Under the pieces are notes generated by a model. That model saw only the letters and a list, made by a program, of their open reading frames with translations. It ran no database searches and had not been told where the DNA came from. DNA of 64,000 bases. It comes from Ananas comosus (lineage: Eukaryota > Streptophyta > Magnoliopsida > Poales > Bromeliaceae). Where the stretch lies: the NCBI RefSeq assembly GCF_001540865.1, contig NC_033635.1, positions 6,969,327 to 7,033,326 on the forward strand, written 5' to 3'. Of this stretch, positions 23,897 through 62,251 are shown one piece after another. The stretch's first letter is position 1. The number at the start of each line of letters is the position of its first letter. The position numbers and the translations under genes are program-made.

Positions 23897-23904
23897 GATT
23901 AAGT

Positions 23905-23916
23905 TGGTATCAGAGC
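23905..23916 (+). other. Primer-binding site, initiator Met tRNA
   Basis: TGGTATCAGAGC lies 8 bp after the 5' LTR. It is complementary to the 3' end of plant initiator-Met tRNA and is the usual primer site of plant gypsy and copia elements. Confidence 0.9.
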
Positions 23917-24346
23917 TCAGTTGTAGGTCGTTGGGACCTAGGTAACCTAAGTGGACAAACCTTAGAAAGGCAAAACGCGAGAGCCGTGATTAATGCGAAA
24001 GTCAATGATTAATTGTTCTAACTCATCCTAGAGCGGAGTGAGTGATTGAAGGAGTTTCTGTTTTGGCCTGAGAAATTATGTTGGCTGCAGACGACATAAT
24101 TTTGGAGGAAAATAGGGACTGCCTTCCAGACTTTCATTGATTGGGTCGAGAGTGTTTGTATTGTATCTGACCCCGTTCCGTTTTCTACAGTTATGTATCG
24201 TCGCCGAGGTCGACCGTCCTTGCGGGAGCGTGCCCAGTTGACGCAGGATCATGCGGGACCTTCCGAGATGCCAGAGCAGACGGAGCGCAGTACGCGACAG
24301 GAGGCGAGTGCACCCCCTGTTGTGGAGCCGAGTGCGCGACCTGAGG

Positions 24347-25027: not shown

Positions 25028-26115
25028 TGAGGCTAGCGCGTCCCCTGATCTGAGTGCACAGTTAGCTGCCTTGACTGAGGTGACAAGGCGGCAGGGGGAG
25101 TTGTTGGAGAGGATGTGTGAGAGGCTAGTTCCACCCCCGAGTTCAACACCGAGGGCACCAGAGGCATCAGCTCCACCTCCTACTACTTCAGCAGCAGTAC
25201 GAGTCGCAGCTGTACCCCCACCAGTGGAGGTTCCGGTGGCGCTAGTTGTGCCTTCTAGAGGGCCAGTGCAGATGACTGAGGCCGAGCAGGAGTGGATGAC
25301 AGAGAGGTTTGCTCGTTTTCGCCGTTTTGACCCGCCGATCTTTGATGGCAGCTGCACAGAGGCGTGGATTGTTGAGGGCTGGGTCAGTGCGCTGGAGAAG
25401 CTCTTTGAGGATCTGTTCAATCCAGAGAGGGAGCAGGTACATCTTGGAGTTTACTGTTTGTCGGGTGATGCTCACGCCTGGTGGAGGAGGGTGAAGCAAG
25501 ACTATGGGCTAGTGGCACTAGAGATGCGGTGGGACGAGTTCTGTAGAATGCTGTTTGGGATGTATTTTTCCAACAGTGTGAAACAGAAGCTCGAGGAGGA
25601 CCTAAAGAAGATCGAGCAGGGGGATCGAACAGTTCAGGAGTACATCCAGGAGTTCACTCGGCTCCTGAACTGCGTCTCTTTTGTAGCTCGAGACGAGGCA
25701 CACCAGGTATACCTTTTTGAGTAGGGTTTGAGGCCCGAGATCTTCAGATTTGTCCATGCGCAGAGGTTGAGGACCTTGGATGCGTCTATGGAGCAGGCAC
25801 TTTAGGTTGAGAGAGGTGATGCTTTGATCCGGGAGAGGACCCAGTTGCAGGGGCAGAGTTAGGACAGGAAGCGCCCAGCCACAGATGACGGAGGACGGTC
25901 AAGCAGCAGGCGTCCGCCGAGGCCTACACGAGCACGTTCTCAGGGTCGTGGGTTTTCGGGGCATCAGCGTTCTAGGGGACTTCGTCAGCAGAGGCAGTTT
26001 CAGGGGCCACAGTAGTGTGTGATTTGTGTGGGACCACACGGGGCCCGGCAGTGTGAGCAGCGTGAGGGCCGGTGTTTTGGGTATGGGCAGCCAGGACATA
26101 TGAGGTCAGCGTGTT

Positions 26116-26750
26116 CCCGAGCAGCATCACCAGCACCATCGACAGCTTCAGCCCGACCAGCAACTCAGAAGTCGTATGGAGCAGCACCGAGTTACCGCCA
26201 GGAGGATAGGTCGTCTGTGCCGCGGCAGAGTGAGCGGCAACAGCAGGCTTCAAGTGGCAGGGTGTATGTAGCCCAGGTGGAGGACTCTACAGAAGCCGAC
26301 AGGGTGGTAGCAGGTATCACTTTGATTTCTGGCATTAGAGGTCGGACTCTTTTTGATACCGGAGCATCTCATTCTTTTGTTAGCCGAGTATTTGCATTAT
26401 TGCATGGTCTAGAGTTAGAGACATTATCACAAGCACGAGAGGTGCAGATCCCAGACCATGTTTTGCAGGTTGTCGAGTGTTGCTAGTCGTGTTCGGTGCA
26501 GTTGGATTCATGGATCATGCCCGCAGACCTGTTGGTGTTAGGGCAGCTGCAGGACTTCAACGTTATGCTCGGTATGGATTGGCTGGCGCGCTACTATCGA
26601 TTGTGGAGTGAGGACGGTGACGTTCCGCGAGCCAGGCCAGGAGGAGTTCACTTTTAGAGGCTGCAGGAGTACGTTGTTCGCCACTTGGATATCTTCGGCG
26701 AGGGCTCGACAGATGATGAGCAGAGGATGTGTTGCTTTTCTGGCCACAAT
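26116..26750 (+). pseudogene. Aspartic protease region of the gypsy element
   Basis: Contains the retroviral-type active site LFDTGASHSFVSRVFA near 26350, downstream of a Pro/Ser/Gln-rich linker. A stop follows near 26484, and MPADLLVLGQLQDFNVMLGM, then DWLARY, continues in a shifted frame. This unit would mature the Gag-Pol polyprotein. Confidence 0.85.
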
Positions 26751-26754
26751 TGTA

Positions 26755-28140
26755 GAGGTACCTATGGCGGCGCCGGGACTCGAGGATATCCCTGTAGTCT
26801 GCGAGTTTCCGAATGTGTTTCCCCCGGAGTTGACGACTATGCCGCCGGAGAGAGAGATTGAGTTTGTAATTGATATAGTTCCTGGAACTGCACCAATCTC
26901 GAATGTACCTTATCGGATGGCACCGGCTGAGCTTAGAGAGCTAAAGGCACAGCTTTAGGATTTGATGGATAAGGGGTTTGTGAGACCCATTGTGTCGCCT
27001 TGGGGAGCGCCGGTGTTATTTGTAAAGAAAATGATGGTTCACTTAGGTTGTGCGTGGATTACCGGAAGCCGAATAAAGTGACCATCAAGAACAAGTATCC
27101 TTTGCCGCGCATTGATGATTTGTTTGATCAGCTGCAGGGATCTTGTGTCTTCTCGAAGATTGATCTCCAGTCAGGTTACCACCAGTTGAGGGTGAGAGCC
27201 GAGGATGTTCCTAAGACGGCTTTTCGGACTCGGTACGGGCATTATGAGTTCACAGTGATGCCTTTTGGATTGACGAATGCCCCTGCCGCATTCATGGAAC
27301 TGATGAACAGAGTGTTCAAGCCGTTCTTGGATAAATTTGTAGTAGTCTTCATCGATGACATTTTGATATACTCCCGGAGCGATGTCGAGCGCGAGGCGCA
27401 CTTGAGGATTGTGCTACAGCTTCTGCGAGAGAAAAAGTTGTATGCCAAGTTAAAGAAGTGCAAGTTCTGGTTACGAGAGGTTGCTTTCTTGGACCATGTG
27501 ATTTCTGCAGAGGGAGTAGCAATGGACCCGAAGAAGATTGATTCTATTCGGGATTGGCCCAGACCGACGACGGTGACTGAGGTGAGGAGTTTTCTGGGAC
27601 TGGCAGGATATCACCGTCGGTTTGTGGAAGGTTTTGCGAAGCTTACCACACCCCTCACCCACTTGACGTGGAAGGGGATTCGCTTTGTCTGGAGTGACGA
27701 CTGTCAGAGAAGCTTTGATCAGTTGAGACAGAGGTTGACGTCAGCTCCTATCCTTGCCCTTCCTGTGATGGGGGAAGGATTTGTGATCTATAGTGATGCA
27801 TCGCACAGTGGAGTGGGTTGTGTGCTGATGCAGCATGGTAGGATAATTGCTTATGCTTAACGGTAGTTAAAGGATTATGAGAAAAATTACCCTATGCATG
27901 ACTTGGAGCTTGCCGCGGTAGTCTTTGCCTTGAAGCTGTGGCGGCATTACTTGTATGGTGAGCACTGTGAGATTTTTACTGATCACAAGAGTCTCAAGTA
28001 TCTGTTCACTCAAAAGGAATTGAATATGAGGCAGCGTCGGTGGTTGGAGTTACTGAAGGACTATGATCTTAGTATTCAGTATCATCCCGGCAAGGCGAAT
28101 GTAGTGGCAGATGCGTTGAGCAGGAAGGTAGTGCAGAGTT
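26755..28140 (+). pseudogene. Reverse transcriptase and RNase H of the gypsy element
   Basis: RT motifs in order: PPEREIEFVIDIVPGTAPIS, a stop at about 26958, WGAPVLFV with a frame break near 27015, [43 protein letters not shown] and the catalytic [10 protein letters not shown]. RNase H follows with [14 protein letters not shown], two stops near 27858, [30 protein letters not shown] and [13 protein letters not shown]. Together these would copy element RNA into cDNA. The frames at 27000-27860 and 27894-28658 are intact pieces. Confidence 0.92.
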
Positions 28141-28707
28141 GGAGTATGTTGATTACTCAGCAGAGGCCGTTGCTCAAGGAGTTGCAGCGGCTGAGAATTG
28201 AGATAGTGTCCCCTAGGTCTACTGCGAGACTGATGTTTCTGGTTTTGCAGCCCACTCTATTGGATAGGATCCGAGAGAAACAGAGTGGAGATCCGTATCT
28301 GTTGAGGATTCGAGAGCAATTAGACAGGGGACAGGCTGAGGGTTTTGCTGTGGACAGCTCGGGAGTACTACTGTACAGGGACCGACAGTGTGTGCCTGTG
28401 GATTCAGGGATCCGAGAGGATATTTTGAGAGAGGCTTATTGTTCTTCTTATAAGGTTCACCCAGGTGGAACCAAGATGTATAAGGACTTAAAGGTACAGT
28501 TTTGGTTGAATGGAATGAAAAGGGACATTAGCAGGTGTAAGGAAGTGAATTCTCGAAATCCGAGGATTGTACCTCATCCAGGATCGACTAACTGTCGAGA
28601 GTATACCCTTTGTGGGAGTTGGAGATGTCCAAAACACCAAAAAGTGCTTTGGAGTTGAGTCCGCGAGAGCAAATAGGCAAAATCTGGATTCAGCAGATTT
28701 TTGCTCT

Positions 28708-29010
28708 CGGGGACCGGTCCCTGGAGGGAAGGACCGATCCCCGTAGCTGATGGTCGCGGGGGAGGTTGATGCGACCGGTCCCTGGCTGAGGGGACCGGTC
28801 CTCGTGCGCGACACCCGCGGGAGAAAGCCAAAATTTGGCTAAGTCCTGAAGGTTCCCCGTTTGGAAACCGGTCTCTTAGGAGAGACCGGTTTCCCAGGGA
28901 CCGGTCCCTCAGGTGAGGACCGGTTCCCGAACGCGAAAACTCCCCAGACAGCAGGGAGAGCTCTCGGGGACCGGTCTCCCCGATCAGGGACCGGTTCCTC
29001 TGGGCGAAAA
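28708..29010 (+). promoter_or_regulatory. GGACCGGTCCC palindrome array
   Basis: Nine ACCGGT cores, mostly within GGGACCGGTCCC or one-base variants, arranged as pairs. It sits just upstream of the CT-rich leader of the solo LTR. Confidence 0.85.
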
Positions 29011-30110
29011 CTGCTCAGTGAGGGCTGTGCAATGGATGAAAAGTTGAGGGGCTAAAGTGGATTTTGTTACAATAGAAGGGCTCAACAGCCCACTCCCCCT
29101 ATCATTCTCTCATTTCACCCTCTCTCTCTCTTTCTCTCTCTCTCTCTAAGAAAGAAAGAACAAAAGAGAAGGAGAAGAAGAAAGAGAAGAAGAAGAAGGA
29201 GGAGAAGAAGAAGAAGAAGGAGGAGAACAAGCTAGAGAGGGCTTGGAGCATCTTCCTCTCTTTCTCTCCTTTCCATTGGTGTAGCTCAAGAGGTAAGCTA
29301 CAAACCCTAGCTTGTAGAACTTGGGGTTTTTGGGTTTTGATGCTTTGGAATGGGTCAAATGGACCCTAAACTTGCTTCTAAATAGATCAATCCCAAGAAT
29401 CTAGGGATTTATTGGTGGTTTGCTATAGGTGCAAACCTAGGGCTCCAAAATGGGGTTTTTGTGAAAGTATGAGATTGATCTCATTTGAAGCCCTGGAAAT
29501 CCTATTGGTAGGTTACAAAACGTGGGGGCGAAGTCGATTTGCATTCGGCGAGCAGGCGTGAAGTTCTCGGCAAAATAGGGCCGGGATAGCTTGGATTTGG
29601 GCAAAAAAGGCTAAAGCCTTTTGGTAGCGTTCGCCGCGGACCATTTATTAAGCCTCGACATCGGTAAAAGGTGGGGGGTGCTATCCCGAAGCTTTCGAAC
29701 TCCTTTCTATGTCTTAGATTGCATTTAATCTCATCTCTTCATGTTCCATTGTAGGATTGCATAGTAGCTCCGTTCCTTATGCTTTCTAATTGATAACCTA
29801 GTGTACTTGGAACGCTTGGTGACTTAGATAGGTGAGGATTGGGTTGGAACGTGGATCCTATGATGCAAGAGAAAAGAGATGAACCCGATGGGGGTGTTGA
29901 TGACATAGAAAGTAGTATTAATGTCAAAGAACTAACGAGTGGCATCCAAGCGTTAAATGATGACGAGTGGCATTAATGTAGTGTAAATAACACTAGAGGT
30001 TTGAGAACCTAGGGATAGGTGGATCCCTTAGAAAATGCCTTGTGGACAAGAACTTAGTAAACCTAAGTAACCTCACATGGAGAGGTCGTCGATGAGTCGA
30101 TTGAGACAGT

Positions 30111-30250
30111 GACCCTAGTTGTAGGGCATCCTCACTTGGAGAGGATTTGATTGAGTTGTGGACCCTAGTGGTAGTGCTCCCTCACTTGGAGAGGATTTGA
30201 TTGGGTATTGACCCTAGATGTAGGGCATCCTCACTTGGAGAGGATAGATC
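30111..30250 (+). repeat. LTR minisatellite, TCCTCACTTGGAGAGGATTT
   Basis: Three tandem copies of a unit of about 56 bp (GACCCTAG..GTAGGGCATCC then TCACTTGGAGAGGAT). Confidence 0.85.
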
Positions 30251-32414
30251 TAGCTCACAGCCTGCGTTTGGGATGGTATAGCCATCCAATCCCCACATGG
30301 AGGGGATTGTCGTCGAGTACTCCGGAGTGTCGCGCGACTAGGACCACTTGGAGGTCTGGACCACATTGAGGTCCGCAGATGGTCCCGGGCTTGGGTGCAC
30401 TTGGAGCTCCCTCCCTACTTTGGGATTGAAGGGTGAGTTATAGGCGAGCCCTAGGGCCTCTCCACAGATTGGGTAAATGGAAAGTTAAAGGTTTAATAAT
30501 GTCATTGAACATTGCTATTCGAACATGGATCGAATTCGTTAGCATGGTAGCAAATCTTTATTATATGATGCATACATTCATATTCATGATTATGGGCATA
30601 GTAGCATAGTTTTCCTACTATCGCATTTACAGTTTTCAGATACATATCTATCTATCTATCTGTTGTTACTTGTGCCCACTTGGACCTATTGGGGAGATCG
30701 GCAGAGTCGGCGGCCGAGCCCACTGGGAACTATGGAAGATAGTTCTCACCCCACTCTAATTCCAGTGGTAGGTACAGGACTGCCCAGGGACGACCGCGGC
30801 AAGGGCATCGCACCAGATCAGTGAGACCGTGGTAGTATAGCAGCTTTCCTTTTTGCATTAGCACACCTATGTATTGAGAGAGATTCATTGTAGGTGAGGA
30901 TTTGGAGAGCTATGTATTTTGGATGAAAAATGTATTCGTTTAAAGAAAATGAAAATGAGGGAACTATTGTAATAGTTAGTAAAGTACTCTCTTTATTTCA
31001 CATGCTTTATCTTGTGGATTGCTTGCTCTTTGTATTGTTGGCACTGTTTGTGCCCTTGTGAATGTGTATATTTAGAATTTAATTTTCTGGGTAAATTCTT
31101 GTACACATTCCTGTTGTTGAGCCTTGGGCGGACAGAGGAGGTGCTGTCCGTTCGGCGGCCCGCCGCCGCTGCCGAACCGTGCCAAATTGGTAGTGGTTTC
31201 GGGGCGGGACGTGACAGCAGGTATGTGGCTAAGTGTTTCACTTGCCAACAGGTAAAGGCCAAGCATCAAGTGCCTGCTGGCAAGCTTCAGAATCTGCTAG
31301 TCCCCGAGTGGAAGTGGGAGCAGATTCCCATGGACTTTGTTGTGGGATTGTCTAGTGCACAGGGTGGTTTTGATGCGATTTGGGTGATAGTGGACAGACT
31401 GACCAAGTCTGCTCACTTCCTACCGGTTCAGACCACCTGGTCCAGAGAGTGGCTCGCGCAGCTATACCTGGATGAGATTCTCAGGCTACACGGCGTGCCA
31501 GTGTCGATTGTATCAGACAGAGACCCTAGGTTTGTGTCCCAGTTTTGGAGGAGTCTTCAGACAGCCTTGGGCACTCAGCTACATTTCAGCACGGCGTTCC
31601 ACCTACAGACAGATGGTCAGTCAGAGAGGACCATTTAGACTCTAGAGGATATGCTGAGGGCATGCGTCCTGGATTTTGGAGGAGGGTGGTATTGACATTT
31701 CAGACTGGTTGAGTTTGCGTACAACAACAGCTATCAAATGAGTATCCAGATGGCTCCGTTTGAGGCGTTGTATGGACGCAGATGTCGATCCCCTTTATTT
31801 TGGAGCGATGTGGGTTAGAGGAGGACACTAGGGCCTGAGATCTTGCTAGAGGCTGAGGAAAATGTGAGAGTTGTTCGACGTCACCTTTTAACAGCTCAGA
31901 GCCGCCAGAAGAGCTATGCTGATATCCGGAAGCGAGACTTAGAGTTTCAGGTTGGAGATCATGTATTTCTCAAAGTCTCGCCGTCTAGAGGGATTCGCCG
32001 ATTTGGAGTACGTGGAAAGCTTAGTCCACGTTTCGTTGGCCCTTTTGAGGTATTGGGACGAGTGGTACTAGTTGCATACGGGATTGCTCTACCCCCGCGA
32101 CTAGCTCGCATTCACGATGTCTTCCACGTCTCAGCATTGAGGAGATATGTTTTCGATCCTTCTCACGTGATTGACTTCACTCCACTTGACATTAGCGAGG
32201 ATCTAGGATACGAGGAGCGACCGTTGCGGATTCTTGCTCGGGAGTCGAAAGAATTGCACAACCGGGTCATCCCGTATGTAAAGGTGTAGTGGAGTAATCA
32301 CGAGGAGCGGGAGGCGACTTCGGAGCCTGAGGCGGTGATGAGGGAGACCTATTCCTATCTGTTCGATGCCTAGAGCTGAGGTATGTTTAAGTTTCGAGGA
32401 CAAAACTTTTCGTA

Positions 32415-32425
32415 GTGGGGGAGGA
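32415..32425 (+). other. Polypurine tract
   Basis: GTGGGGGAGGA ends directly at the 3' LTR start, the plus-strand primer site of the gypsy element. Confidence 0.85.
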
Positions 32426-34293
32426 TGTGGTATCCCTGGTGTTCATCAGTTGAGGCTTACCGACAGCTTTGGCGAGTGTCGGGACAAGTCCGAGCCGCGT
32501 TGGTGTGAAATACACGCAAAACGGACTCAGCAGGGATGCGAGAGCAGGACTTGGCATTGGAATATGCAAACAACAGATTTTCTACTTGTTGTACCGGTAG
32601 AACCATCAAGGCGTACTGGTAAACTTTCTGTACCGGTACAACATCGGGGGTGTACCGGTACACTTCGACAGATTTTGTGCAGCTGCTCTCGGGTTGCCAT
32701 TTGTACCGGTACACTTGCTCGTGTACCGGTACACCAGGGTAGGTGAGATGGCATTTTGGTAATTTCTAACCTCATTTGTGTCACCCACTCCTCTCCACCG
32801 CTTATATGTACGTAGAGGGTTAGAGAGAGATGGATTTTTACTGCTTTCCTCCTCTCTTTCCCTAGCATCGACCGAACAAGAAAGAGCTCGGGTGGAGTTG
32901 CCGTGGAGCTCGGACCGACGTCGACGTCGCGCCGCGGTGCCGTTCGAGCGGGTGTTTGTCGTCGTAGCATCGCGAGGAGGCCGGGCGAGGGTGCGATTCC
33001 GCCGTTCTCGACGTCGTGCCGGATTGGATTTAGCGTTCGAGGTTGGTTAATCATCGGTTTGTCTTCTAAGTATATAAATATGGTCGGCATGTGTAGTTCT
33101 AGCTTGTTGCATATCCGGTTTGCTCAATTCATGGAGTTTAGACATATGTATATGTAGAATATGAATTTGGAGCTTAATGTTGTGACTAGATATTGACACA
33201 TGTTGGACTTAGATTTGAGAAAACCGCAAATATAACTTGTCATATGCTTACACTACCTGCTTTAGCTTTAGGAGCCGTTATCATTTTGTATCGCCGCAGT
33301 ATCGGTGTGGTGGATACCCCAGGTAGTATAGTGTACTGTTACGCTCGTGCTAGGATGCTGAGCCTATTTTTACAGTAGCTTTCAGACTGTTCCGGACTGT
33401 TGGGTGCCGTTGGGACTTACGGTGTTCCCGGATTGCCGTTTTGGCATTAGATTGTGCTGAGGGCACGTGACTGTTTGGTTGGTAGACCAGTTAGACCCAG
33501 TGTACTTGACTATAGCCTGCGAGAGCCTGATTGAGCTCGACAGAGATACGCTTGCATACTCGGTTGGGTAGCGCCCGAGTGCCACTCCGGAGTTGGGCCT
33601 AGTGCTGTTGTGTTGGTGTCGTTGTGTCCTCATTGGACTTGCTCTCCACTAACTACCCTGCGGGGGTGGTTGTTAGTGTTGCTTCGGCAGGCGGGACGGG
33701 TGTATCACAGTCCCTGGATAGATTGGGTCAGCATTGATATTTTTTACTACAGATGATTAGAGCATGATAGTGTCATGATATTTAGCTGTAGATGTTTTTC
33801 CAGCTTTCCTACTATCCCAGCTCCTTTCTGTAGACTTAGTGGGTGGACCGATGATTGTTGAGGGCGGCACCCACTGAGAACTACTTGTTTTTACAGTAGT
33901 TCTCACACCTAGTTGTTACCCCTCTTTTGCAATGCTTGCTGTTCCGGTTGCTGCTTCCTCTGAGACCGATCGTGGCAAGGCGTTGTCGGTTAGTGCCCTT
34001 TCTAGTTGCGGCAGTTCGAGAGGTACCAGATTCAGGTAGTGGTTTTGTTTCCTTTGCAGTTCATGTACATACAGCTTTCGTAACTCGCCGGAGCGAGTCT
34101 TTTGTATCAGGATATTTCGCATGTATATAGAACCGGCTTTCGTTTACCAGCTTTATTTAAGCAGCTCTATACTACTATTTGTAGTATTGTATGTTTATAC
34201 AGGTACGGCTATCGCTTCGTATACAGAAAAAATTTCTTTGTACATGGCGGATTTGTCGGCGTGCCCGGGGAACGAGACATCTGGGGCGTGACA
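32426..34293 (+). repeat. 3' LTR of the gypsy element
   Basis: Starts TGTGGTATCCCTGG and ends GGGGCGTGACA, colinear with the 5' LTR. Palindrome array at 32588-32735; hairpin block at 33837-33907, with AGTGGG pairing to CCCACT. Confidence 0.93.
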
Positions 34294-35184: not shown

Positions 35185-35403
35185 GGGGATCGGTCCCTGA
35201 TATGAGAGACCGGTCCCCTCAGAACAGTGCTGCGGCAGGGCTTGAGGCAACCGGTCCCTGGCTGGGAGAAACCGGTTCCCGAACGCGTGTTTTGCGTGAA
35301 GAGTCCGAGAGATCGGTTCCTGGCGGGGAGAGACCAGTTCCCGAATGTTGGTTTTGCGGGACGAACTGAGAGACCGGTCCCAGGTGTCGGGGAGATCGGT
35401 CCC
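35185..35403 (+). promoter_or_regulatory. ACCGGT palindrome array
   Basis: Eight cores (ACCGGT with some ATCGGT/ACCAGT variants) form pairs with 19-21-bp spacing. Confidence 0.8.
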
Positions 35404-41980: not shown

Positions 41981-44741
41981 TGTTCTAGGCGTTACCGCAA
42001 TCCCGTATTGAATGATGTTCTACTCAAATTGTTCACACAATTATACGAAGAATGTCTGTAATATATCGAAAATTCGAAAAATAAATATCGAACTTTAGTC
42101 AAATTGACCAAAGTACGAGGACGGTACACTTCGAAAAGTCCGAAGGTGCTAAAATGATCGAAAGTGAGTTGTGGAAGGTTTTCGAGAGCTAAAGAATCAA
42201 ATTCTGCAAAACTGCAGATTTTCAGCTCTCGGGGACCGGTCCCTAAAGGGAGAGACCGGTCCCCGAACACGTATGAAATGAGACAGCCGAAAAATCGGCT
42301 AAGTCCTGGAAGGATAGCTCTCGGGAACCGGTCTCTGCCTGAGAGACCGGTCCCCCAGAGACCGGTCCCATAAGGAGAGACCGGTTGCACTGCGTGCAGC
42401 AGCTCTGGCTGCGCAGGGTGGACGTTCGGGAACCGGTCCCTGCTCGGGGAGACCGGTCTCTGCCTGCGCGGAATGCCCAGTTCGGGCAGTGTATTAAAGT
42501 GAAAGTTGAGGGGTTTATTTGCATTTTGGCAACCCATTGAGCTATGTTAGGGGGGCTGAGGGGTTTTTCTCTCATTTCTCACCCTCTCACACTCTCTTCT
42601 CTCCCTCTCTCTCTCTAGAAGACAAAGGAGAAGAAGAAGAAAGGAAGAAAAGAAGGAAAAGAAGGAGAAGAAAGTGAAGAAGAAGATCAAGGAGCAAAGG
42701 AGCCTCATCTTCTTCCTCTCTAGGGCAAGAAAGGAAAGCTTACAAGGTAAGCTTTGATCTATATTGTAGAAAAACCCTAGAATGAGTTTTGAATAACCTA
42801 GAAATGAGTTTTAAAGGGATATTTGAAGAGTTTTGAAGCTTTCTTTTGCTTCTTTAGAGATCAAGTCCATGGTTGAGCTCAAGGTGAGCTTCAACCCACC
42901 TCTAATGGTGAAATCCAAACTAGGGTTTGGAGTGAGTTAAGAATGGTTCTTATGGACTAATTAGAGTGTAATGAAGCTACTTTTGCTTCTCTTTGAGATC
43001 AAACCCTAGGTTTGATACATGTGTTGGAGCTAGGGCACCAAATTGGGGCTTTTGCTCATGAGGATTGCTAAGTGCAATTGACCCTCTAAAAACCTAATTG
43101 GGGGTATTTCCGACGCGTTGGTGCGCTCGGAATAGCATTTCGAAAAGTGTATGAAAGGTTATGGGCAAAATGGCCTAATAAGGGTTCGTTTTGCCGCAGG
43201 TAAAGAACGAAGCATCTAAAAATCCCAAGGAAAATCATCGGAGCACCTTTGGAAGCCTACGAGGTGGGTGGTGCTTCTCAAACTCATTGAAATTCTCTCT
43301 ATGCCTAATGTGTCATTCTTTGAGCATATGTTATATGCATTGTTGCATGCATTTTAGGGTAAAGTAATGAAAGGAATGTAATGATGCATGATTGTGAGTA
43401 CAACTTGCATAATGTGATGGTTAAGAACCTTATGAAAGTTAAAACCCTATATGTATGCATGAGAGAAAAGTGAGCACCCAAAGTGAGCAAAAGAACAGAG
43501 TGGCACAATGACATAGATCGAGTGGCATTCGATAAAGCTAATGTGAAATGACACTAGAGTTAGTGTGATGTAAAGAATTAAAGTGATGTAAAGAATGATG
43601 AAAATGACGACGAGTAAAGCTAAAGTAAAGTGGGCAATAAGAACAAGAATGCTAGAGTTAGCAAAAGTAAAAGAAATGCAAAGAACAATGATTGCTAGAG
43701 TTAGCAAGAGTAATGAGAATGTAAAGAATGTGATTGCATGAGTTTGCAACATAAAGTGATGTAAAGAACACTAGAGCTAGTGTAAAGTCAAGATTGAACT
43801 TATAATCCTTTGAGTTAAGGATATGATCATACTTGCTATTGAGTTCCGTGCTCGAGGGCGGTCGCTCCCCCTCGGGCGATGCGCTCCGGAGTTATGCATC
43901 CGGGTTGGAGTAGACCCGTAAGGACGGTCCTAGCTGGTGAGTACCTGCGATGATGGACTTAACGTGAGGCAAGTTAATGTGGCGAAACCCCCGGGTTAGC
44001 CTTAATGATTAAAGAGCAAAGAACAAAGAATAAAGAACAAAGAGTAAAGTGAAAAGAACTAAAGAACATGCATAATCTGCATCTATTAATGTTGAGCATA
44101 TTCCTTGCTTTTGTTCAGGCATATTAGCATCATGTTATAGATTGGTTACCATATTTCAGCTTATCCTTTCTATTATGCCTGAGTTAGTCCTAGTGGGAAA
44201 GTCGGTGATGTTGAGGCCGAACCCACTGGGAACTTTGTTGTAGTTCTCACCCCACTATTTCCACAGAGCCGGGACCGAGCGAGCCGGCGAGCGACCGAGG
44301 TAAAGGTATCGCGCCTTAGTCAGAGGCCACCAGAGTTGGGTTACATTTTGTTAGTAGACACCCTTTTATCATCTTTTGTACTTGATGATTAGTGATGTAA
44401 AGAAAAGAATGCAAAGCTTATTTTGAGGTAAATGTGTTGTAAGAAAGAAATGATGAGATTATGTAAGAACAGCAAAGAATCTTAAATGTAAAAGATGGAT
44501 GCAATGTATATGATCTAAAATGAATCATATTACTTGTGAATGTTTAGTTTTCCTTTCTTTCACTGATGGCTATTGCTTACCCTCGCGTAAGCCGTTTGTG
44601 TATGTTTCCGCTAGTGCTTTTCTCTATTGATGAAAATGTACATGTGATGAGCCTTGGGCGGATAGGGGAAACTCTGTCCGTCCGGCGTCTGTTTGACGTG
44701 CTCGGGTCGGGCCAAGTTGGCAGCGGTCCCGGGGCGTGACA
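41981..44741 (+). mobile_element. LTR (plus) nested in the minus solo LTR
   Basis: Begins about TGTTCTAGGCGTTACC and ends GGTCCCGGGGCGTGACA (2761 bp). It has the ACCGGT array (42232-42455), a GA-rich leader (42600-42700), a hairpin block (44191-44255, short stem GAACT/AGTTC) and GAGCCTTGGGCGGATAGGGG. The flanks give only a poor target-site match (ATGTT versus ATGTC), so the left end may be a few bases off. Confidence 0.75.
42232..42455 (+). promoter_or_regulatory. ACCGGT palindrome array
   Basis: Eight ACCGGT cores. Measured start-to-start spacings are 20, then 19, 15 and 19 within a cluster, then 20 in the last pair. Confidence 0.85.
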
Positions 44742-46278
44742 ATGTCAATACATGTTAACCAAGCAAGCAGTTATATAATCCAGGCAATTTCATAACCCTT
44801 CCTCTGCCATATAGATGTTCCCTTATGTATGAACTAATATGCATTTGATGCATGTTTCAGTTTACTCAAATATCCATATCTACAAGTGAACATGCCACTA
44901 TTCCAATTCATAATGTCAAAGAAGATATAGAGGGAATTCACCCATTTCGGGAAGGTCCAACCCACCAGTTAATCGACGACTTTCGTTAATTCTGCAACCG
45001 AGAGCAATCCAAATTCTCCAAGTTCCCTAATACACATTCTAAAATCAGCTTGAAGTTGAATTCAAACTTTCACATATAACCCTCATGTAAGCATCGAATT
45101 TGGGCGAGAATCTTACCTAACATGTATCTAAGCTCAATTCCCCTCTTTAGTTCAGTTTAGAACATCAAAACCAGTCTCCGCAAGCTCCCAAAGCTTAGCC
45201 AAAAAGGTCTCATACCCTGCTGAAATTCTGTTGTGAACAATATCAAAACTGCATTAATATCACTACCTACACATCCAACTCGAAAGGAGTTAGGTTACTC
45301 ACCTTGTACAGCTTTAGCTGAAGTTAAAGCACACTAAACCAGTCCAGCTGATCTCAAAGGAGCAAGAAACAAGCTCAATTCACTACTATAGTATCAATTG
45401 GAAAGAAAAATTTAGTTAATCATCTTGTATAGCTCCAATTCAAGTGGAAGCATCTCAAATCCACTCTAGCAGGTTCTTATAACTCTTCCAAGAGAGTTTC
45501 CTAACCCTGCTGTGAGCCAATCTCAAAAATACCACTAATACCACTAATACCACTATTTCTTACCTCAAACAAGAGAATAATGGCTTTACTCACCATCCAA
45601 AGCTTTAAGGTCAGTCAAACCTGAACCAGGGTTGAAGTTAGCACTACAAAGACTCTCCTTCTCCTCTTTCGCAGCTCCCTCATAACCTCCAATCTCAGCT
45701 AACAAGAAGAGGGAGAAGAGAAAAGGCTAATTCCATTAGCTTCTACTTCAAATAGAGAGAGAACTCTTAGAGAGAGAAAGAGAGAAGCCCTTACCCTGTT
45801 CTTAGAGCTCCAGCACACTCTAAGCTGCTGTAGGGATCGATCTGGGTACTAAAAGGATAAGCTCAAAGGTGATATGACCAAAACAGCCTCAATCCACGCA
45901 GCTGCTATGATGTGTACCGGTACACAGGCAATGTTGTACCGGCACACTATGTAAATTTCTGCAATTTCGAATTCCAATGCACTTTCGATCTTTTGACGGT
46001 TCGATCACTCTGTTAACTTGTCAAAAACCTTTCCACCACTCTCTAAAAGGTGTGGGTTAGCTCTCATTACCAACCCTACTCATCAAACCTCATAATTGAC
46101 CAACTTCGGAATACTACATTTGAGTAGTACCTTTGCAATGCACTTTTCCATTTCCAGTTATCTACTTGCTTCAGTAATTTGCTGAAACTTCTCGACAATC
46201 TTTCACAAGTTGTAGAATAGTTCCAATTTCTATTCCAACACTCGAACTTCACAATTTGTCAAAGTTCATAGTACTACA
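44742..46278 (-). mobile_element. Solo LTR (minus), right part
   Basis: Continues the LTR begun at 40380 and ends at ..GTACTACA, the minus-strand TGTAGTAC head, next to TGCAT. It contains a GA/CT-rich leader (45650-45790) and two palindrome cores 22 bp apart (45912-45947). Confidence 0.78.
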
Positions 46279-46496: not shown

Positions 46497-47060
46497 TGTA
46501 AGGTACTGGACTTCTAAAATCATGAAGTTACGGTGTACATTTGGTTGGAAAGCCATTTGAATGGTTCCGATGAAGTTCGGTGAAGTTCGGAAGCATTCGG
46601 GCATTTCGGTGCGCGTAGGTGCGGAAAAGGACCCGAAAGGCTATGTTGCGCCGTGAACTAAATCCGGCATTAGCGTGGATGAAAAGATAATGAAAACACG
46701 CTTAAAAACGTATTTGGAGAGTTTCGATTTGATTTGAAAAGAATCGGAGGTCAAACGAGCGAAAACGGAGCAAAAACGGACGAAGGCTGAAATTTGGCTA
46801 AGTCTGGGCTGGAGGTCCCTCGCGGACCGGTCCCAGGTTGAGAGACCGGTCTCTAAGGGACCGGTCCCTCATGCAAAGACTGGTCCCCGAACCCCGAAAA
46901 TGCCCAGTTTGGGCTATTGCGAGAAATGCATTGTTGAGGATTTTTTATGCAATTTTGCACTCATGTGAGTGTATAGAAGAGAGAAATGGGTCTTTTCTCT
47001 CTTCCCTCTCATCCTTGCAACCCTAAACTCTCCCTCTCTCTCTCTAGAAAGAAAAAAAAG
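46497..47060 (+). mobile_element. LTR head fragment with ACCGGT array
   Basis: Starts TGTAAGGTACTGGACTTCT (compare 13622) and holds four cores (46823-46891), then breaks in its CT-rich leader at 47060. Confidence 0.72.
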
Positions 47061-47610
47061 TGTCACGCCCCGGGACCCAGCAGAAGCCCGTCGGGCACGT
47101 GCCCAGACCCGCCATATGTCTAAAACATCTAAGGCATCTAAAACAAAACGACAATAATGCAGTAGAACGAGGAAGTCTAAAGATATCAGAGCAAAATATA
47201 ACTAGGTTCTACAATAAGGAGCAAACATGAAACAGAAAATCCACTAAGTAAAAGTATAAGATAATACAATAAAAAAAAAATCCCATAACAAGTGCTAAAC
47301 CGAATACATGGGTGGTCTCTCTATACATGGTACCAAAACTCTCCCTCTCACAAAACCAAAAAGATGAGAGTGACCACCTAGGAGTAATAGCAAGCTCCGC
47401 TATCTAGCTATGCGACCCCCTTGCCGCGATCCCGTGCCTCCGCCGGTGCCAAAGGCTCTGGAATAAAACTATAAAACAAAGGGCGTGAGAACTATTAAAT
47501 AATAGTTCCCAGTAGACAATTACTGACTTCAGTTAGGTGCTCCACTAGGCCCAAACGAAATAGGTAAGTACCGGTAAATAAACGAAAGCGATAAGTACAA
47601 CTTACGAAGA
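47061..47610 (-). mobile_element. LTR fragment (minus)
   Basis: Begins TGTCACGCCCCGGGACCC and matches the reverse complement of the distal part of the LTR at 35043-37597, including its hairpin block (GAACTATTA/TAATAGTTC). It stops at about 47610. Confidence 0.72.
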
Positions 47611-48522: not shown

Positions 48523-50935
48523 TGTAACACACTGGACTTTTGCAAATTGCAAGGTTCGAGTGTTTGATTTGTGTTTCGAGCTTTTTCACATTTTCTGGAG
48601 GGTCGTAGACAGTGTTCCGACCTATGGCTCGCATCCCAAGAATTGAGGTTTAAAACTTTGCACTAAAACCCAAAAAGATGGATTTTTGGTCTACTCTTGG
48701 GTTTGCCTCAGCAAGGCTGTATACCGATACAAGTTGATGGTTGTACCGGAACAACAGGTTGTATCGGTACAGGTTGATGGCTGTACCGGTACAGAGGGGT
48801 GTTACCTGCCAACCCGAGGCTTAGGTTTGTGCGCACAGTGTTTTGTACCGGTACACTTTTCCGTGTACCGGTACACAGTGCAGAATGCAGTGTGATTGGG
48901 TTTGAGGGGTGTTTTTGGGATTGTAGCAAATCTACAAATAACCCCACGCCCTTGGCTGTGCTCCCTGAGCTTGGACACAGCAGCGATCAAAGTAGAGAGC
49001 CCTCCACTTCTTCTCCTTTGATTTCCTTACCTTTTTGCTTGGGTTTCTAGAGATTAAACTTCTTCTTTTGCTTCTTTTATACTATTGGTGGCATTTCCAC
49101 CATGGGAGAATGCTTGAAGCTTGGAGTTGAGCTTGTTGGAGGAGAGATCTTCAACCCTAGTGTAATTTGAGCCTTGTTTGAAGCTTCTCTTGAGGTTGGT
49201 AATATGATTCTACTTCTAGATTCATGTTTTGATGGTTTCTTTGAGATGAAACCCTAGATTGAGGAATTAGGGTTTGATTTGGGGATTTTTAATTTAGGGC
49301 TTTTGGAGCTCAATTGTTTGGATTAGAACCTTACCCTAGGTTGGATTGAAAGGGTTTTAGCTTCCATTTGGAGCTTGGGAAGGTTTTGCTACACTATAGG
49401 TGAGTTTTGGCCCTTTTGTTGAGTTGGTTAATGTTTAACCATTGGATTGTTCGTAACGTTCGTTTAACTCTCCTTTTATTACCTTTAGGGTGCTAGGAGG
49501 ATAGTGGGCAACTTCATTTGGCGAAACGAAAGAGTTCGAAGTGTTTCCGGTGGGTTTGATCTCACCGAAATGGGTGAACTCCCCCTAAAACCCCTCTTTG
49601 GTTTTAAGATCCAATTAAATGCTTTTTCATGCTCAAAATGACATGCTATAATTTATGAGAACACATTACATATATGTTATGTAAAGTTAATTTGATGCTT
49701 TATGAAGTAGAGGCTCTTATGTGAACCTGCGCATGAATTAGCTAGTTGGTGAATTCTCTTTTATGCAACCTTAGAAGGCATGTTAGAGCATGATTGACGG
49801 TGTGACCCTTGGGGGATCTCGACTTATGGGTTTAGTAAAGTGATCATCTTACATGTTAAACAAGATACTTGTGTAGACAAGGAAATAGGGCTTTGTGACC
49901 TAGTAATTAACAAGGTGTTGACCTTGAAGATTATAGCATATCTATATGACTTGGATATGTGCATGAATGAGACTTAGCAAATATTTGCATGATATACCAC
50001 ACTTGTTGTAGACAAGTAGTTGTGACAGGGTGACATAGTACATGTAAGATCCATAAGAAACCAAGTTGGAACATTCATTCTAGTTGAATATATGCATGTG
50101 GCATTATTGAATGAAAGCACTCGCATGATTGTTATTACTTTATAAGGTGGAGGCATGGGTAGAAAGATAAATGTGCATGGCTTGCATCATGAGCATTGTA
50201 AATAATTTGTGGTAACTATGCATACACCATAAGAAAGTGACTTCCTTAGCTATAGTGTAATAGACTAAGTGTGAACTCTTATTGAGACTTGGGCAATAGT
50301 GAACTATCCTAAATAGGATAATGGCAAGGGTTGTGTGTATTTGAACTAGTGACTGTTACTTGACATAATAAATATGAACGTCATGTAGTTGGGTTAGTAA
50401 ATGACAACCTAGACACTTGATACTATATTGAGACCTTTGGGGTTGTGCTACATATTCCATACTTTAGGCATGATGACCGAGAGCTGGATACTATTGATCA
50501 TGCTTGCTTGCTATTGTGCTCATTCGCACATGCTTGTGAGGTTCGCTCCCCACAAGCCGGCACTCTGGAGATAGCCTACGGGACACAAGCTCGCCCGTGC
50601 GGGATTGGGTGCCAAAATGGGATGCCGTGGGGGAGGCTCATTCCTAGAATGGGGATGTTGACTACAACATTGCCATTTTTGGCACGGCACAAGCCAGACT
50701 ACATACGTGTAGATCCATGACGAGAATTGAACTATGATACCAAAAGTATAATGAGAAAACTACTACTAGAAAGTGCATCTTAGTTGGATTTGTAGATATG
50801 CATGATGGTGCATAATGTGAACTTATGTTAATCATTCTTAGCATTGACATTCTAGTGGTAGTATATTACACCTTTGTTGATTGGCATATTATATGGTTAG
50901 AGCATTGTATGGTTTGAATCCATCTCTAATTCCTT
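48523..50935 (+). mobile_element. 3' LTR, distal end missing
   Basis: Starts TGTAACACACTGGAC, same head as 24347 and 35043. It holds palindrome cores at 48717-48876 and the GTGAGG..GCTCCCCACAAGCCGGCAC block (near 50535), then breaks at about 50935 before the hairpin block. Confidence 0.75.
48717..48876 (+). promoter_or_regulatory. TGTACCGGTACA array (diverged)
   Basis: Six cores: four in a first cluster with spacing 22, 18 and 22 (variants ACCGAT, ACCGGA, ATCGGT and one perfect), then a perfect pair 20 bp apart at 48845-48876. Confidence 0.8.
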
Positions 50936-51805: not shown

Positions 51806-52138
51806 TGTCATGACCCGCGACCACCCGCTTATTTGGCCGAGGTCGCGGCGCCGCCGACAGACCGCCGAACGGACAGAGTCTCCCCTGTATGTCCTAGGCG
51901 TCGCAATCAAAACAAGTACAAGAAGTTCCAACCAGGAACATTATTCAAGCAAGATTGCATAAGGAAGGTATCAAACAACATAACACATCCTATGTTATTA
52001 CAAGCATTTCCATTAGATTCATTTTTACATCACATTAGCATTATTACATTACATTTTCTTCCAAATACAATTAATGATCGCAACATTATTACAAGTTTGC
52101 TCTTTTTTTTTCTTTTCCCTCTACCCATAGGCTATGCC
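51806..52138 (-). mobile_element. LTR 3'-end fragment (minus)
   Basis: TGTCATGACCCGCGACC start followed by CGCCGAACGGACAGAGTC; 333 bp, cut by the LTR at 52139. Confidence 0.65.
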
Positions 52139-54056
52139 TGTCATGCCCCGCCCCGAAACCACTACCAAGTTGGCACGGTTCGGCCGCGGCGGTGGGCCGC
52201 CGAACGGACAGCACATCCCCTGTCCGCCTAAGGCTCAACAACAGGAATGTGTACAAGAATTTACCCAGGAAATTAAATTCTAAATATACACATTCACAAG
52301 GGCACAAACAGTGCCAACAATACAAAGAGCAAGCAATCCACAAGATAAAACAAGTGAAATAAAGAGAGTACTTTACTAACTATTACAATAGTTCCATCAT
52401 TTTCATTTACATCATTTTCTTTAAATGAATACATTTTTCATCTCCAAAATACATAGCTCTCCAAGTCCTCACCTACAATGAATCTCTCTCAATACATAGG
52501 TGTGCTAATGCAAAAAGGAAAGCTGCTACACTACCACGGTCTCACTGATCGGGCGCGATGCCCTTGCCGCGGTCGTCCCTGGGCAGTCCTGTACCTACCA
52601 CTGGAATTAGAGTGGGGTGAGAACTATCTTCCATAGTTCCCAGTGGGCTCGGCCGCCGACTCTGCCGATCTCCCCAATAGGTCCAAGTGGGCACAAGTAA
52701 CAACAGATAGATAGATAGATATGTATCTGAAAACTGTAAATGCGATAGTAGGAAAACTATGCTACTATGCCCATAATCATGAATATGAATGTATGCATCA
52801 TATAATAAAGGTTTGCTACCATGCTAACGAATTCGATCCATGTTCGAATAGCAATGTTCAATGACATTATTAAACCTTTAACTTTCCATTTACCCAATCT
52901 GTGGAGAGGCCCTAGGGCTCGCCTATAACTCACCCTTCAATCCCAAAGTGGGGAGGGAGCTCTAAGTGCACCCAAGCCCGGGACCATCTGCGGACCTCAA
53001 TGTGGTCCGGACCTCCAAGTAGTCCTAGTCGCGCGACACTCCGGAGTACTCGACGATAATCCCCTCCATGTGGGGATTGGATGGCTATACCATCCCAAAC
53101 GCAGACTGAGCTAGATCTATCCTCTCTAAGTGAGGATGCCCTACCTCTAGGGTCAACAACTCAATCAAGTCCTCTCCAAGTGAGGATGATATATCACTAG
53201 GGTCCACAACCCAATCAAATCCTCTCCAAGTGAGGATGCCCTACAACTAGGGTCAACATCTCTCGCGGTATCATTTGTTCCCGATATTCATGCAATGCTA
53301 TTTAGCTTTTCTAAATTCATTGTTCACAAGGCATTTTCTAAGGGATTCGCCTATCCCTAGGTCCATCGACCTCTAGTGTCATTTACACTACATTAATGCC
53401 ACTCGTCATCAATTAACATTTGGATGCCACTCGTTTGTTCTTTAACAATAACACTACTTTCTAGGTCATCAACACCCCCATCGGGTTCATCTCTATCTTT
53501 AGCATCATAGGATCAACGTTCCGATCCAATCCTCACCTATCTAAGTTACCAAGCGTTCCAAGTACACTAGGTTATCATTTAGAAAGCATAAGAAATGGTG
53601 CTACTATGCAATCCTACAATGCAACATGAAGAGATGAGATTAAATGCAATCTAAGACATAGAAAGGAGTTCGAAAGCTTCGGGATGGCACCCCCCACCTT
53701 TTATCTATGTAGAGGATTTAGAAACGCTCCTCGGCGAACCTTACGACGAGGTCTCGGCCTTCTTGGTCCAAAGCAAGGCTAAATCGGCCGTATTTCGCCG
53801 ATAGCTCCCAATCCACTAGCCGAATCGTGAAATCGACTTCGCCCCCGCATTTTGTGACCTAACAGTAGGGTTTCCAAGGCTTCAAAGGAGATCAATCTCA
53901 TACTTTCACAAAAAATCCCATTTTGGAGCCCTAGGTTTGCACCTATAGCAAACCACTCAATAAATCCCTAGATTCTTGGGATTGATCTATTTAGAAGCAT
54001 GCTTAGGGTCCAATTGACCCATTCCAAAGCATAAAAACCCAAAAATCCTAAGTTAT
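52139..54056 (-). mobile_element. LTR fragment (minus), sister of 28536-31216
   Basis: TGTCATGCCCCGCCCCG start. Nearly colinear with the reverse complement of 29300-31216, including hairpin, minisatellite and GATGCCACTCG words. The proximal LTR half is absent because the next element starts at 54057. Confidence 0.85.
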
Positions 54057-60170: not shown

Positions 60171-60909
60171 TGTCACGCCTTGAGAATCGGCATAGGCCTG
60201 CCCGGTGCGTGCCCAGACCCGCCATATGCCTGCACATATAAGGCGTCTACAACAAAAGCGAATAAAAGAACAATAAATAGAGAATATCTAGAGATATCAG
60301 AGCAAGTATATAGCTAGGTTCTATTAACCAGTAGAAACCACAGAAGTTAGACTGCTAAAGTAAAATGTAAAGTAGTACATCATAAGTCTCAAAATACAAA
60401 TAGTGGGTGGTCTCTACAAAATGGTACAAGTCTCTTAACCTCTCTAAAAGAAACAAAAGAGCGGTAGACCACCGATCAACCAATCCCTCGCTAGCTAACT
60501 CGAGGTGATTCCTTTCCCGCGATTCCGAGCCTCTCCCGGAGTGGAAGGCTCTGAAAGAAAACATAAACAATGGGACGTGAGAACTATAATTTATAGTTCC
60601 CAGTGGGCAATTACTGACCTTCGCAAAATGCACAACTAGGCCCAAATCAAGAGCAGATATAGATAACGAAATAACAACTGCGGAAATATATGCATATATT
60701 GAAATGCTATTCTACTATGCCACAAGTATACATGATATGAACGTGGAGTACATCTACTCTATCATGAATCCGATNAAATAACAACTGCGGAAATATATGC
60801 ATATATTGAAATGCTATTCTACTATGCCACAAGTATACATGATATGAACATGGAGTACATCTACTCTATCATGAATCCAATATGCTGATGCATAACAGGT
60901 ATGCCCTAC
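60171..60909 (-). repeat. 5' LTR of the gag-only element, truncated
   Basis: Matches the first 740 bp of 54057-57069 on the plus strand. It is interrupted at 60910 by another LTR, and the 106-bp duplication around the N at 60775 is not present in the other copy. Confidence 0.85.
60775..60775. other. Single N: probable assembly join
   Basis: The 106 bp before it (60669-60774) and after it (60776-60881) are the same sequence with two mismatches, while the sister LTR has it once. Confidence 0.85.
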
Positions 60910-61112
60910 TGTCACGCCCCGGGACCGATACCAATTTGGCCCGACCCGAGCATGTCAAACAGACGCCGAACGGGCAGAGTTTCCCCTATCCGTCCAAGGC
61001 TCATCACATGTACATTTTCATCAATAGAGAAAAGTACTAGCGGAAACATACATAAACGACTTACACGAGGGTAAGCAATAGCCATTAGTGAAAGAAAAAG
61101 GAAACTAAATGT
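60910..61112 (-). mobile_element. LTR 3'-end fragment (minus)
   Basis: TGTCACGCCCCGGGACCG start; the 200 bp match the reverse complement of 44540-44741. Confidence 0.78.
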
Positions 61113-61374
61113 TAAGTCGTGTGTGTTGGCAAGTTTCGTGAAGTGAGTCGGAGTCTTGAAGAATCGGTGCGTGTTGTCGAAGATCGAAGAATTCAAGATT
61201 TCGAAGAAGTTGGAAAATAACTCACACCGTGAATCACGATGTCCAGGTAAAGTGTTAATTCATGATTATGGTGATTCATACTTAGTTGTAGACATTAGAA
61301 TCATAATATCATTGTCTAACGGATTAGAAAGTGCATTGGAACTTTGCAAAACCCGAAATGGCGAAAATTTACAA

Positions 61375-61520
61375 AGTGTACCGGTACAGCATCAGAAGTG
61401 TACCGGTACAAATTGTGTACCGGTACGACCATCAAGGGTGTAACCGGTTTCACTGTTTCGTCTGGTTTTTCGTTCCGTCATCGTGTAACCGGTGACAGCC
61501 TAAAGTGTACTGGTACACAG
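61375..61520 (+). promoter_or_regulatory. TGTACCGGTACA array in the copia LTR
   Basis: Two perfect 12-bp palindromes and one with a single terminal change lie at spacings of 22 and 17 bp, then GTAACCGG variants and GTGTACTGGTACAC. The linker ACCATCAAGG is shared with the gypsy 3' LTR at 32600. The array ends about 50 bp before the TATA box. Confidence 0.85.
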
Positions 61521-61569
61521 TGTAAAATCGTGAAAACTTTCTAATCCGACTCCAATTGATTCTAAAGTC

Positions 61570-61578
61570 TATAAATAA
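61570..61578 (+). promoter_or_regulatory. TATA box of the copia LTR
   Basis: TATAAATAA, preceded by the palindrome array and followed by the presumed transcription start. Confidence 0.65.
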
Positions 61579-61816
61579 GCTATTGGACTTCTCTAATATA
61601 TCAAGCATCACGAAAATACATATTTGAGAAACCCTAGAGGCTCGGATTTCATCTAAAACCTATTTTCTACAAAAAGCCTCTTTTAGATCAAATCGAGATA
61701 TTGAAATTTGATATTAATATGTCGATTTGATCTCCGCTTCGCTTGGAGTTCTTTTCCCTGGTTTTCTACGATACTCCAAAGCGAAGGATCACCATATTCA
61801 TGATCCTCTTCATGAT

Positions 61817-61945
61817 GGCGTCGTGGATTCGGCGGATTTGACGGCGGTTCGTGGATTCGGATCGTGGGCTCGTGGATTCGAGTGGCGTCGTGGATTCGGC
61901 GTGATTGAAGCTTCGTGGATTCGAAGTGGAGGCTTTCGTGGATTC
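61817..61945 (+). repeat. Interspersed GTGGATTCG repeats
   Basis: Six copies of CGTGGATTCG spaced 15-30 bp apart within the copia LTR downstream of the TATA box. Confidence 0.85.
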
Positions 61946-62251
61946 GAACGTGAGGGCGTGGACAACCCGGAGGGTAGCGCGAAGATTCATAGGAGGTTAA
62001 GAGAGGTTAAGTCCGTGGAGTCGGTAATCACCTTGTAATCTTTTCTCTTAGTGAATTGTTTTTTCGCGTGTTGGTCCCGTGGGTTTTTCTCCAAGTTGGA
62101 GTTTTCCCACGTAAATCTCGGTTTGCTTTTTATTTTCCGCATTTATTTTTATTGCATCGAGAATTGTGGTTTTTGGCCGTTCACCTATTCACCCCCCTCT
62201 AGGTGATAGATACAATCTAGATAGATCCTTGGGCTCCTCAAAACTTACAAT

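Follow-up and report, generated by a model that had tools for sequence, protein, structure and literature searches.

Palindrome arrays of two dialects in gypsy and copia LTRs of the pineapple genome

Elements and palindrome arrays of the window

The window analysed in this study is a 64,000-nucleotide stretch of pineapple DNA (C15:6969327-7033326 of the 382-Mb Ananas comosus assembly), and all genomic counts given below refer to this one genome. Besides one match to a kinase-like protein, it harbors gypsy and copia elements whose LTRs carry arrays of short palindromes. Two types, here called dialects, were recognized: type A, TGTACCGGTACA, and type B, with the consensus G[G/A]GACCGGTC[C/T]C and the forms GGGACCGGTCCC and GAGACCGGTCTC, the core ACCGGT being common to both. 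An array was taken as two or more sites, and each site was allowed up to two mismatches. The features outside the copia element are as follows, with array spacings in bp.

3962-5164, minus strand: match to a pineapple phosphatidylinositol 4-phosphate 5-kinase 1-like protein (401-aa translation, 100% over 92% of the query)
10350-10543, minus strand: B array 20-62-19-61-20, from the site scan
22016-34293, plus strand: gypsy element, LTRs and internal region, GGCAT on both sides
22016-23896, plus strand: 5' LTR of this element (LTR homology, GGCAT flank)
22180-22323, plus strand: six-site A array of the 5' LTR, 22-17-22-51-20, from the site scan
24347-25027, plus strand: 681-bp solo LTR that sits inside the gypsy leader, flanked on either side by TGAGG; it carries two A sites (24521-24554, spacing 22)
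28710-28998, plus strand: ten-site B array, a tetrad 18-15-19 and then 51-20, from the site scan
32426-34293, plus strand: 3' LTR of the gypsy element (LTR homology, GGCAT flank)
32590-32733, plus strand: A array of the 3' LTR with one site decayed, 39-22-51-20 as measured
35186-35403, plus strand: B array in an LTR whose flanks are homologous to those of the A-type LTR at 48720 (homology, tree)
42232-42460, plus strand: B array 20-72-19-15-19-52-20, from the site scan
45913-45946, minus strand: two-site A array, spacing 22, of the same solo-LTR family as 24347-25027 (flank similarity)
46823-46887, plus strand: B tetrad 19-15-19, from the site scan
48720-48875, plus strand: six-site A array, 22-18-22-62-20, of another gypsy-related LTR family (site scan, tree)

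The gypsy element at 22016-34293 has a Met-tRNA-type primer binding site (PBS) at 23905 and pieces of gag, protease, RT, RNase H and integrase in gypsy order, and since this domain order and PBS are common to gypsy elements, they do not single out Del/Tekay. SH3_Tf2-1 was found alone at 31819-32286 in this element, and SH3 together with a chromodomain in a separate fragment at 10997-11587. The nearest same-strand TATA-like box downstream of the LTR array lies at 22659, 336 bp off. The initial annotation had listed the arrays at 22175-22325 and 32588-32735 side by side; both belong to the two LTRs of this one element, with GGCAT on both sides, and thus count as one case, not two. A related stretch (L026) represents the unoccupied sequence, without the solo LTR of 24347-25027. 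The ten-site B array lies in about 2.3 kb (28658-30976) that splits the gypsy pol, with the H2C2 piece on one side and the core integrase piece on the other; this insert is probably a solo LTR, and an inverted relative (91%) of 29318-31217 lies at 52138-54054. Another gypsy family of the window has three LTRs without sites (54057, 60171 and 37069) and a fourth (47061-47589) with one two-mismatch site. A 107-bp tandem duplication was also noticed at 60669-60882, where it closes a gypsy LTR devoid of palindrome arrays.

The copia element enters the window near its right end, and its features are the following.

61110-62249, plus strand: 5' LTR of a Sirevirus-like copia element; in 14 of the 16 gag-found genomic copies the homology begins precisely at 61110, and the LTR ends in CTTACA
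61320-61332, plus strand: left arm CGGATTAGAAAGT of a 13-bp inverted repeat flanking the array
61377-61517, plus strand: six-site A array, 22-17-24-45-21, from the site scan
61536-61548, plus strand: right arm ACTTTCTAATCCG of the same 13-bp inverted repeat
61569-61579, plus strand: TATA box CTATAAATAAG, 52 bp past the last palindrome, fitting the cTATAA/TAT/AAg in the passages of PMC2829016
62248-62263, plus strand: LTR-PBS junction CA/ATTGG/TATCAGAGC, exact, equal to the Sirevirus junction in the passages of PMC2829016
62273-64000, plus strand: copia gag by profile domains (Retrotran_gag_2, DUF4219, CCHC), continuing past the window end

Judged from its LTR, PBS and gag, with pol lying beyond the window, this copia element appears Sirevirus-like. 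A polyC stretch, CACCCCCCTCTAGG, at 62190, near the LTR end at 62249, agrees in kind with the Sirevirus integrase signal. The 3' end of the element is outside the window, and in the relative L018 a purine tract, GGGGGAGAT/TG, adjoins the 3' LTR (one tract); for Sireviruses, several polypurine tracts and an AT/TG attachment site are typical. The gag has a CCHC knuckle, and a putative coiled coil was judged by eye. Two of the six array sites are 14-bp variants (TGTAACCGGTTTCA and TGTAACCGGTGACA). The proposal that the arrays are nearly all that unrelated copia and gypsy LTRs have in common holds in the window, where the array-masked copia LTR matched no gypsy LTR, the only non-self match being 23 bp at 13126 (E 0.005). 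Among the genomic gag copies, three consecutive ones (G000:C5:10777228, 10782095 and 10786981) lie about 4.88 kb apart, which points to tandem copies of a short gag-only (TR-GAG-like) element; no pol was recognized in frames of at least 90 aa after the gag of two copies (L082, 1.6 kb; L083, 2.0 kb).

Abundance, spacing and kinship of the two dialects

The six arrays listed by the initial annotation were all recovered, their spacing is non-random as it had proposed, and the linkers ACCATCAAGG, GCCATCACC and TTGATGGC as well as CACTTnnnCGTG were found; its list had missed five B arrays (10350, 28710, 35186, 42232 and 46823) and the two 14-bp variant sites of copia. These six arrays hold 28 sites at up to two mismatches, where shuffles expect 1.22 +/- 1.03. 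It had regarded all sites as perfect palindromes; 16 are exact, and one or two mismatches occur in the other 12. Genome-wide, type A TGTACCGGTACA has 17,162 exact copies against 384 for the control pattern, and type B GGGACCGGTCCC has 8,914 against 188; together with 28 against 1.22 in the shuffles, these counts rule out a chance origin of the sites. Exact pairs of TGTACCGGTACA at a distance of 30-60 bp number 2,040 genome-wide against 45. In a motif-blind sample of twenty 10-kb stretches (200 kb in total; C2-C20 at 5.0 Mb, C1 at 5.6 Mb), TGTACCGGTACA was the commonest 12-bp palindrome (16 copies) and GGGACCGGTCCC the second (6) once pure A/T palindromes were set aside, and 15 of the 16 exact A copies lay within arrays.

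For the array survey, the window and the motif-blind sample were combined with sixteen copia copies and all 41 C1 site clusters of the genome-wide listing, and the overlapping loci L003, L004, L005 and L007 were removed; the C1 arrays (42) were picked by exact motif. The survey comprised 83 arrays, 67 of type A and 16 of type B, and at up to two mismatches none of the 83 was mixed. Single-linkage clustering by flank similarity placed 59 of them in gypsy-related LTRs, 21 in copia and 3 elsewhere. The gypsy assignment was confirmed by arrays that adjoin gypsy genes or pol (22016-34293 of the window, L009:2047 and L025:7501), and the copia assignment by arrays that adjoin copia gag (the window, L018 and L028-L043). 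Type B occurs in copia in a solo LTR with intact ends (L025:2612-3824), which is flanked on either side by ATCGA and holds ten B sites, and a second, weak case is L018, with two sites of two mismatches each. Both dialects are therefore found in gypsy and in copia LTRs. In addition, the word CTCGGGTT/AACCCGAG is present in 34 of 46 gypsy A arrays (e.g. L016, L061 and L064), and in several gypsy A families it stands twice, in inverted orientation, near the centre of the long gap, hinting at another factor that binds at this place.

The spacing tracks the dialect and not the superfamily in the arrays that bear a tetrad. With tolerances of 21-24, 17-18 and 21-24 bp, the 22-17-22 tetrad was detected in 10 of the 46 A arrays of gypsy, 7 of the 19 of copia and none of the 16 B arrays, while the 19-15-19 tetrad (18-20, 14-15 and 18-20 bp) was detected in 7 of the 13 B arrays of gypsy, 1 of the 2 of copia and none of the 67 A arrays. 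The 22-17 part by itself occurs in 14/46 gypsy A and 17/19 copia A arrays, and a gap of 49-75 bp followed by a pair 20-21 bp apart in 35/46 gypsy A, 9/13 gypsy B and 4/19 copia A arrays. The shared unit is a module of 22-17-22, a long gap and a pair about 20 bp apart. The initial annotation had proposed a transferable unit of 34 bp; the shared geometry extends over up to six sites and follows the type of palindrome, not the element. Most arrays are partial, and the six-site plan is the fullest form and not the rule, many arrays being shorter or otherwise ordered, and alternative site orders such as 23-22-19 occur in several gypsy A arrays.

Among the long gaps, lengths at steps of about 10.5 bp are preferred. 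Gaps of at least 28 bp between adjacent sites were collapsed within eleven hand-set tree clades, values up to 2 bp apart being merged, which left 30 values. Their best period in a scan of 7-16 bp was 10.75 bp (R 0.59), and at 10.5 bp R was 0.58 with a Rayleigh p of 3.9e-5, a value that is optimistic because the families are related and some gaps sum over lost sites. Under other family thresholds R ranged from 0.49 to 0.64. The copia A gap of 44-46 bp and the steps of 15-19 bp are out of phase.

Gypsy elements have changed dialect more than once. A FastTree built from the 59 gypsy LTR flanks, and from gypsy flanks only, with the arrays removed, needs three A/B changes, at least two of which are forced by starred branches, as compared with 11.9 in shuffles; the orientation of one of its rows was set manually, 10 of the 517 pairwise orientations are inconsistent, and two B rows have 18% and 47% of the columns filled.

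Among the gag-found copia copies, the array is retained in 13 of 16. Two subfamilies of 5 and 9 rows were compared, a count that leans towards conservation because the array-less copies L036, L037 and L039 were left out. Between them, identity at the window array is 72% for sites, 38% for linkers, 67% upstream and 83% downstream, and five of the six sites reach 75-90% with one at 30%. Within the window's subfamily the values are 82% for sites, 69% for linkers and 88% for flanks, and within the other subfamily 97%, 87% and 85-89%. The position of the sites is thus retained as the sequence between them turns over, and the sites are no better conserved than the downstream flank. In the second subfamily, TGTTCCGGTACA and TGTTCCGGAACA stand at several positions with the 22-17 spacing intact, and the GATTAGAAAGT arm of the flanking inverted repeat is largely retained. 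Two further peculiarities of this subfamily were observed, namely a 13-bp variant, TGTCCAGGGTACA, in L028-L030, L032-L035 and L038, and 65-bp repeats with inverted CCATCAA/TTGATGG arms in L032-L034; the arrays of the subfamily that were tested fold very strongly as RNA.

With regard to the origin of the sharing, about 50-60 bp upstream of the copia array resemble the gypsy solo-LTR family of 45913 (score 34, where 500 letter shuffles reached 25 at most), and the match extends over 87 bp at 73.6% with two palindromes included. In a crude test, the A linkers of copia and gypsy had no excess of 7-mers in common (79 against a letter-shuffle mean of 126.6), and the B linkers had little (10 against 6.5 in the letter shuffle, maximum 19). 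A single recombination from gypsy to copia, which the initial annotation had named as an alternative, agrees with the upstream resemblance of about 50 bp in the window's copia subfamily, but such an event alone would not explain the B-type copia LTR. Exchange, to which the upstream resemblance speaks, and parallel recruitment by a shared factor, to which the unshared linker words speak, may both have contributed.

Candidate function and competing explanations

We consider that the arrays may serve as U3 enhancer modules for dimeric DNA-binding proteins, common to both superfamilies in two dialects, and we give this reading, in which binding is deduced from sequence, a probability of roughly one half. 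A dimeric protein had already been suggested in the initial annotation, and it still appears to be the best reading. Each 12-bp palindrome would present two half-sites to a symmetric protein, and two dialects imply two related specificities. The close sites, spaced 22-17-22 where the dialect is TGTACC and 19-15-19 where it is GRGACC, and the pair about 20 bp apart would stand at near-integral helical phase, and sites so phased could let several dimers act jointly on the LTR promoter. The modules would be gained by exchange, such as template switching between co-expressed elements, or by parallel recruitment, and maintained through selection for transcription. In this model we infer the protein, the cooperativity, the activation and the route of exchange. 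The wider proposal of a common cis-code, with phased dimer sites in two dialects that exclude one another, have spacings of their own and are switched as a whole, in both superfamilies, is put forward tentatively, as something we would not yet expect to hold. The FRS/FRF family is expanded in pineapple according to passages of PMC8774480, and as a candidate trans factor FRS/FRF is only a lead.

The same palindromes might instead matter at the RNA level, where transcribed copies would form hairpins that yield small RNAs and silencing, with conservation reflecting this or a needed structure. All four window arrays tested were more stable than their shuffles (z -6.2, -7.2, -2.5 and -8.1), as were all eight copia arrays tested out of 21 (z -3.7 to -11.5; 60 shuffles each), and given this strong folding, hairpin-derived small RNAs retain some likelihood; there is also the precedent of the maize Sirevirus palindromes (Bousios 2016 as cited in passages of PMC5311732 and PMC10760457). 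Yet any set of identical palindromes folds well, and the half-sites of type B do not behave as pairing partners would. Hairpin partners of B sites (neighbours within 22 bp) agreed in 225 of 342 letters, fewer than the 240.5 of permutations (p 0.003), whereas same-side halves agreed in 249 letters, more than the permuted 232.1 (p 0.001), both p-values overstating independence because the families are related. Perfect palindromes among the B sites number 16 of 79, below the 22.8 expected from independent half-sites, and a step of 10.5 bp is a property of duplex DNA. Thus, of the siRNA hairpins suggested in the initial annotation, the folding above shuffles is borne out in four of four window arrays, but the B sites lack pairing covariation, and we regard an RNA-level function as rather unlikely. 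For A sites without the 14-bp variants, neither excess nor lack of palindromes was seen (gypsy 121/159 against 118.3, p 0.135; copia 33/41 against 33.6). An apparent excess of palindromes among A sites (156/233 against 140.1) had come with the shifted 14-bp variants and was gone once these were removed. CCATC words beside A sites point outward in 41 and inward in 5 of 408 site sides in gypsy, and in 21 and 0 of 174 in copia; the dyad is accordingly sometimes extended to TGATGGY-TGTACCGGTACA-RCCATCA, which explains the linker formerly described as reversed.

Should the arrays have no continuing function, they could be passive modules, inherited from an ancestral gypsy LTR array and carried into copia by recombination, with the switches being replacements of whole arrays. 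The single gypsy-related LTR cluster that holds 59 of the 83 arrays under single linkage fits this, as do the 45913-like stretch of about 50 bp that precedes the copia array and the switching of whole arrays without mixed ones. The retention of sites amid diverged linkers between the gag-found copia subfamilies, array-less copies left out, argues against it, and so does a preferred geometry that persists, with its gap steps, despite unalike linkers, so that passive inheritance is in our view unlikely. A bound protein could also be a host silencer or heterochromatin factor that recognizes the arrays, and not a recruited activator. Thousands of copies would suit such a factor, and a change of dialect could mean escape from its recognition; selection on the element would, however, favour loss, yet 13 of the 16 gag-found copia copies keep the array, and the copia array is directly upstream of a TATA box. 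We regard silencing as quite improbable. By the logic of LTRs, self-complementary 12-mers would be present in the 3' U3 of the genomic RNA and could drive its dimerisation or packaging, but most B sites are imperfect palindromes (16/79 perfect) and the helical preference of the gap steps would go unexplained, and a role in replication is therefore highly improbable. The dimeric enhancer reading is the one that we retain.

Relation to known LTR boxes and significance

The enhancer boxes in the U3 of Tnt1-type elements resemble the pineapple arrays in being repeated, regulatory and different between subfamilies; to our knowledge, they are not palindrome arrays common to superfamilies. The nearest known kind is the RM boxes of Sireviruses. 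Passages of Bousios et al. 2010 (PMC2829016) describe these as palindromic repeated motifs that contain CCG/CGG, lie in the upper half of the LTR upstream of the TATA box and start 200-400 bp from the LTR start; they give the signature CGG-CCG for 12 of 13 RMs, call the RMs Sirevirus-specific and absent from the classic copia elements studied, and name no common binding factor. Similarly, the copia element of the window has dyad-symmetric boxes clustered in the upper LTR, 267 bp from its start and upstream of the TATA box. Compared with the RM boxes of those passages, however, the pineapple half-sites abut as CCG|CGG (core CCGG) instead of CGG-CCG, the window copia LTR has six boxes where the RM class has at least eight (the L025 LTR has ten), and the boxes are abundant in gypsy LTRs (22016-34293, L009:2047 and L025:7501) and not confined to Sireviruses. 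They also differ in having two dialects common to both superfamilies, dialect-specific spacing and preferred helical gap steps. Because they depart from the RM class in half-site order, copy number and Sirevirus restriction, we call the pineapple arrays RM-like.

In maize, CACCGGACTGTCCGGTG palindromes of Sireviruses are small-RNA hotspots (Bousios 2016 as cited in passages of PMC5311732 and PMC10760457), and the same palindrome also occurs in structured regions of Helitrons (passages of PMC10760457). That region is likewise a palindrome-rich, fast-evolving cis region of the LTR with a sequence different from that of pineapple, and those passages of the two papers report no sharing of the maize palindromes with gypsy. 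In pineapple, the Del lineage makes up 16.4% and gypsy 19.3% of the assembly by Inpactor (passages of PMC6022998), and Del elements probably host most of the gypsy arrays; the words 'palindrom' and 'motif' are absent from the text of PMC6022998 by word search. We found no prior report of the pineapple arrays in literature covered mostly by titles and the starts of abstracts and including few subscription journals, and the letters of TGTACCGGTACA were met with only in unrelated zebrafish work.

What is new with respect to the RM boxes of 2010 is the sharing between gypsy and copia, the two dialects with their own spacing, and the tens of thousands of genomic copies. Arrays in two dialects, common to both superfamilies, suggest that gypsy and copia elements make use of a common set of control proteins. 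The two 12-mers, their spacings and the natural switch pairs offer a handle on the trans-acting factor and on the question of whether there is one host regulator. If the common cis-code is true, a few host regulators would set which elements of both superfamilies are expressed, and the elements would co-evolve with these regulators and trade keys for them.
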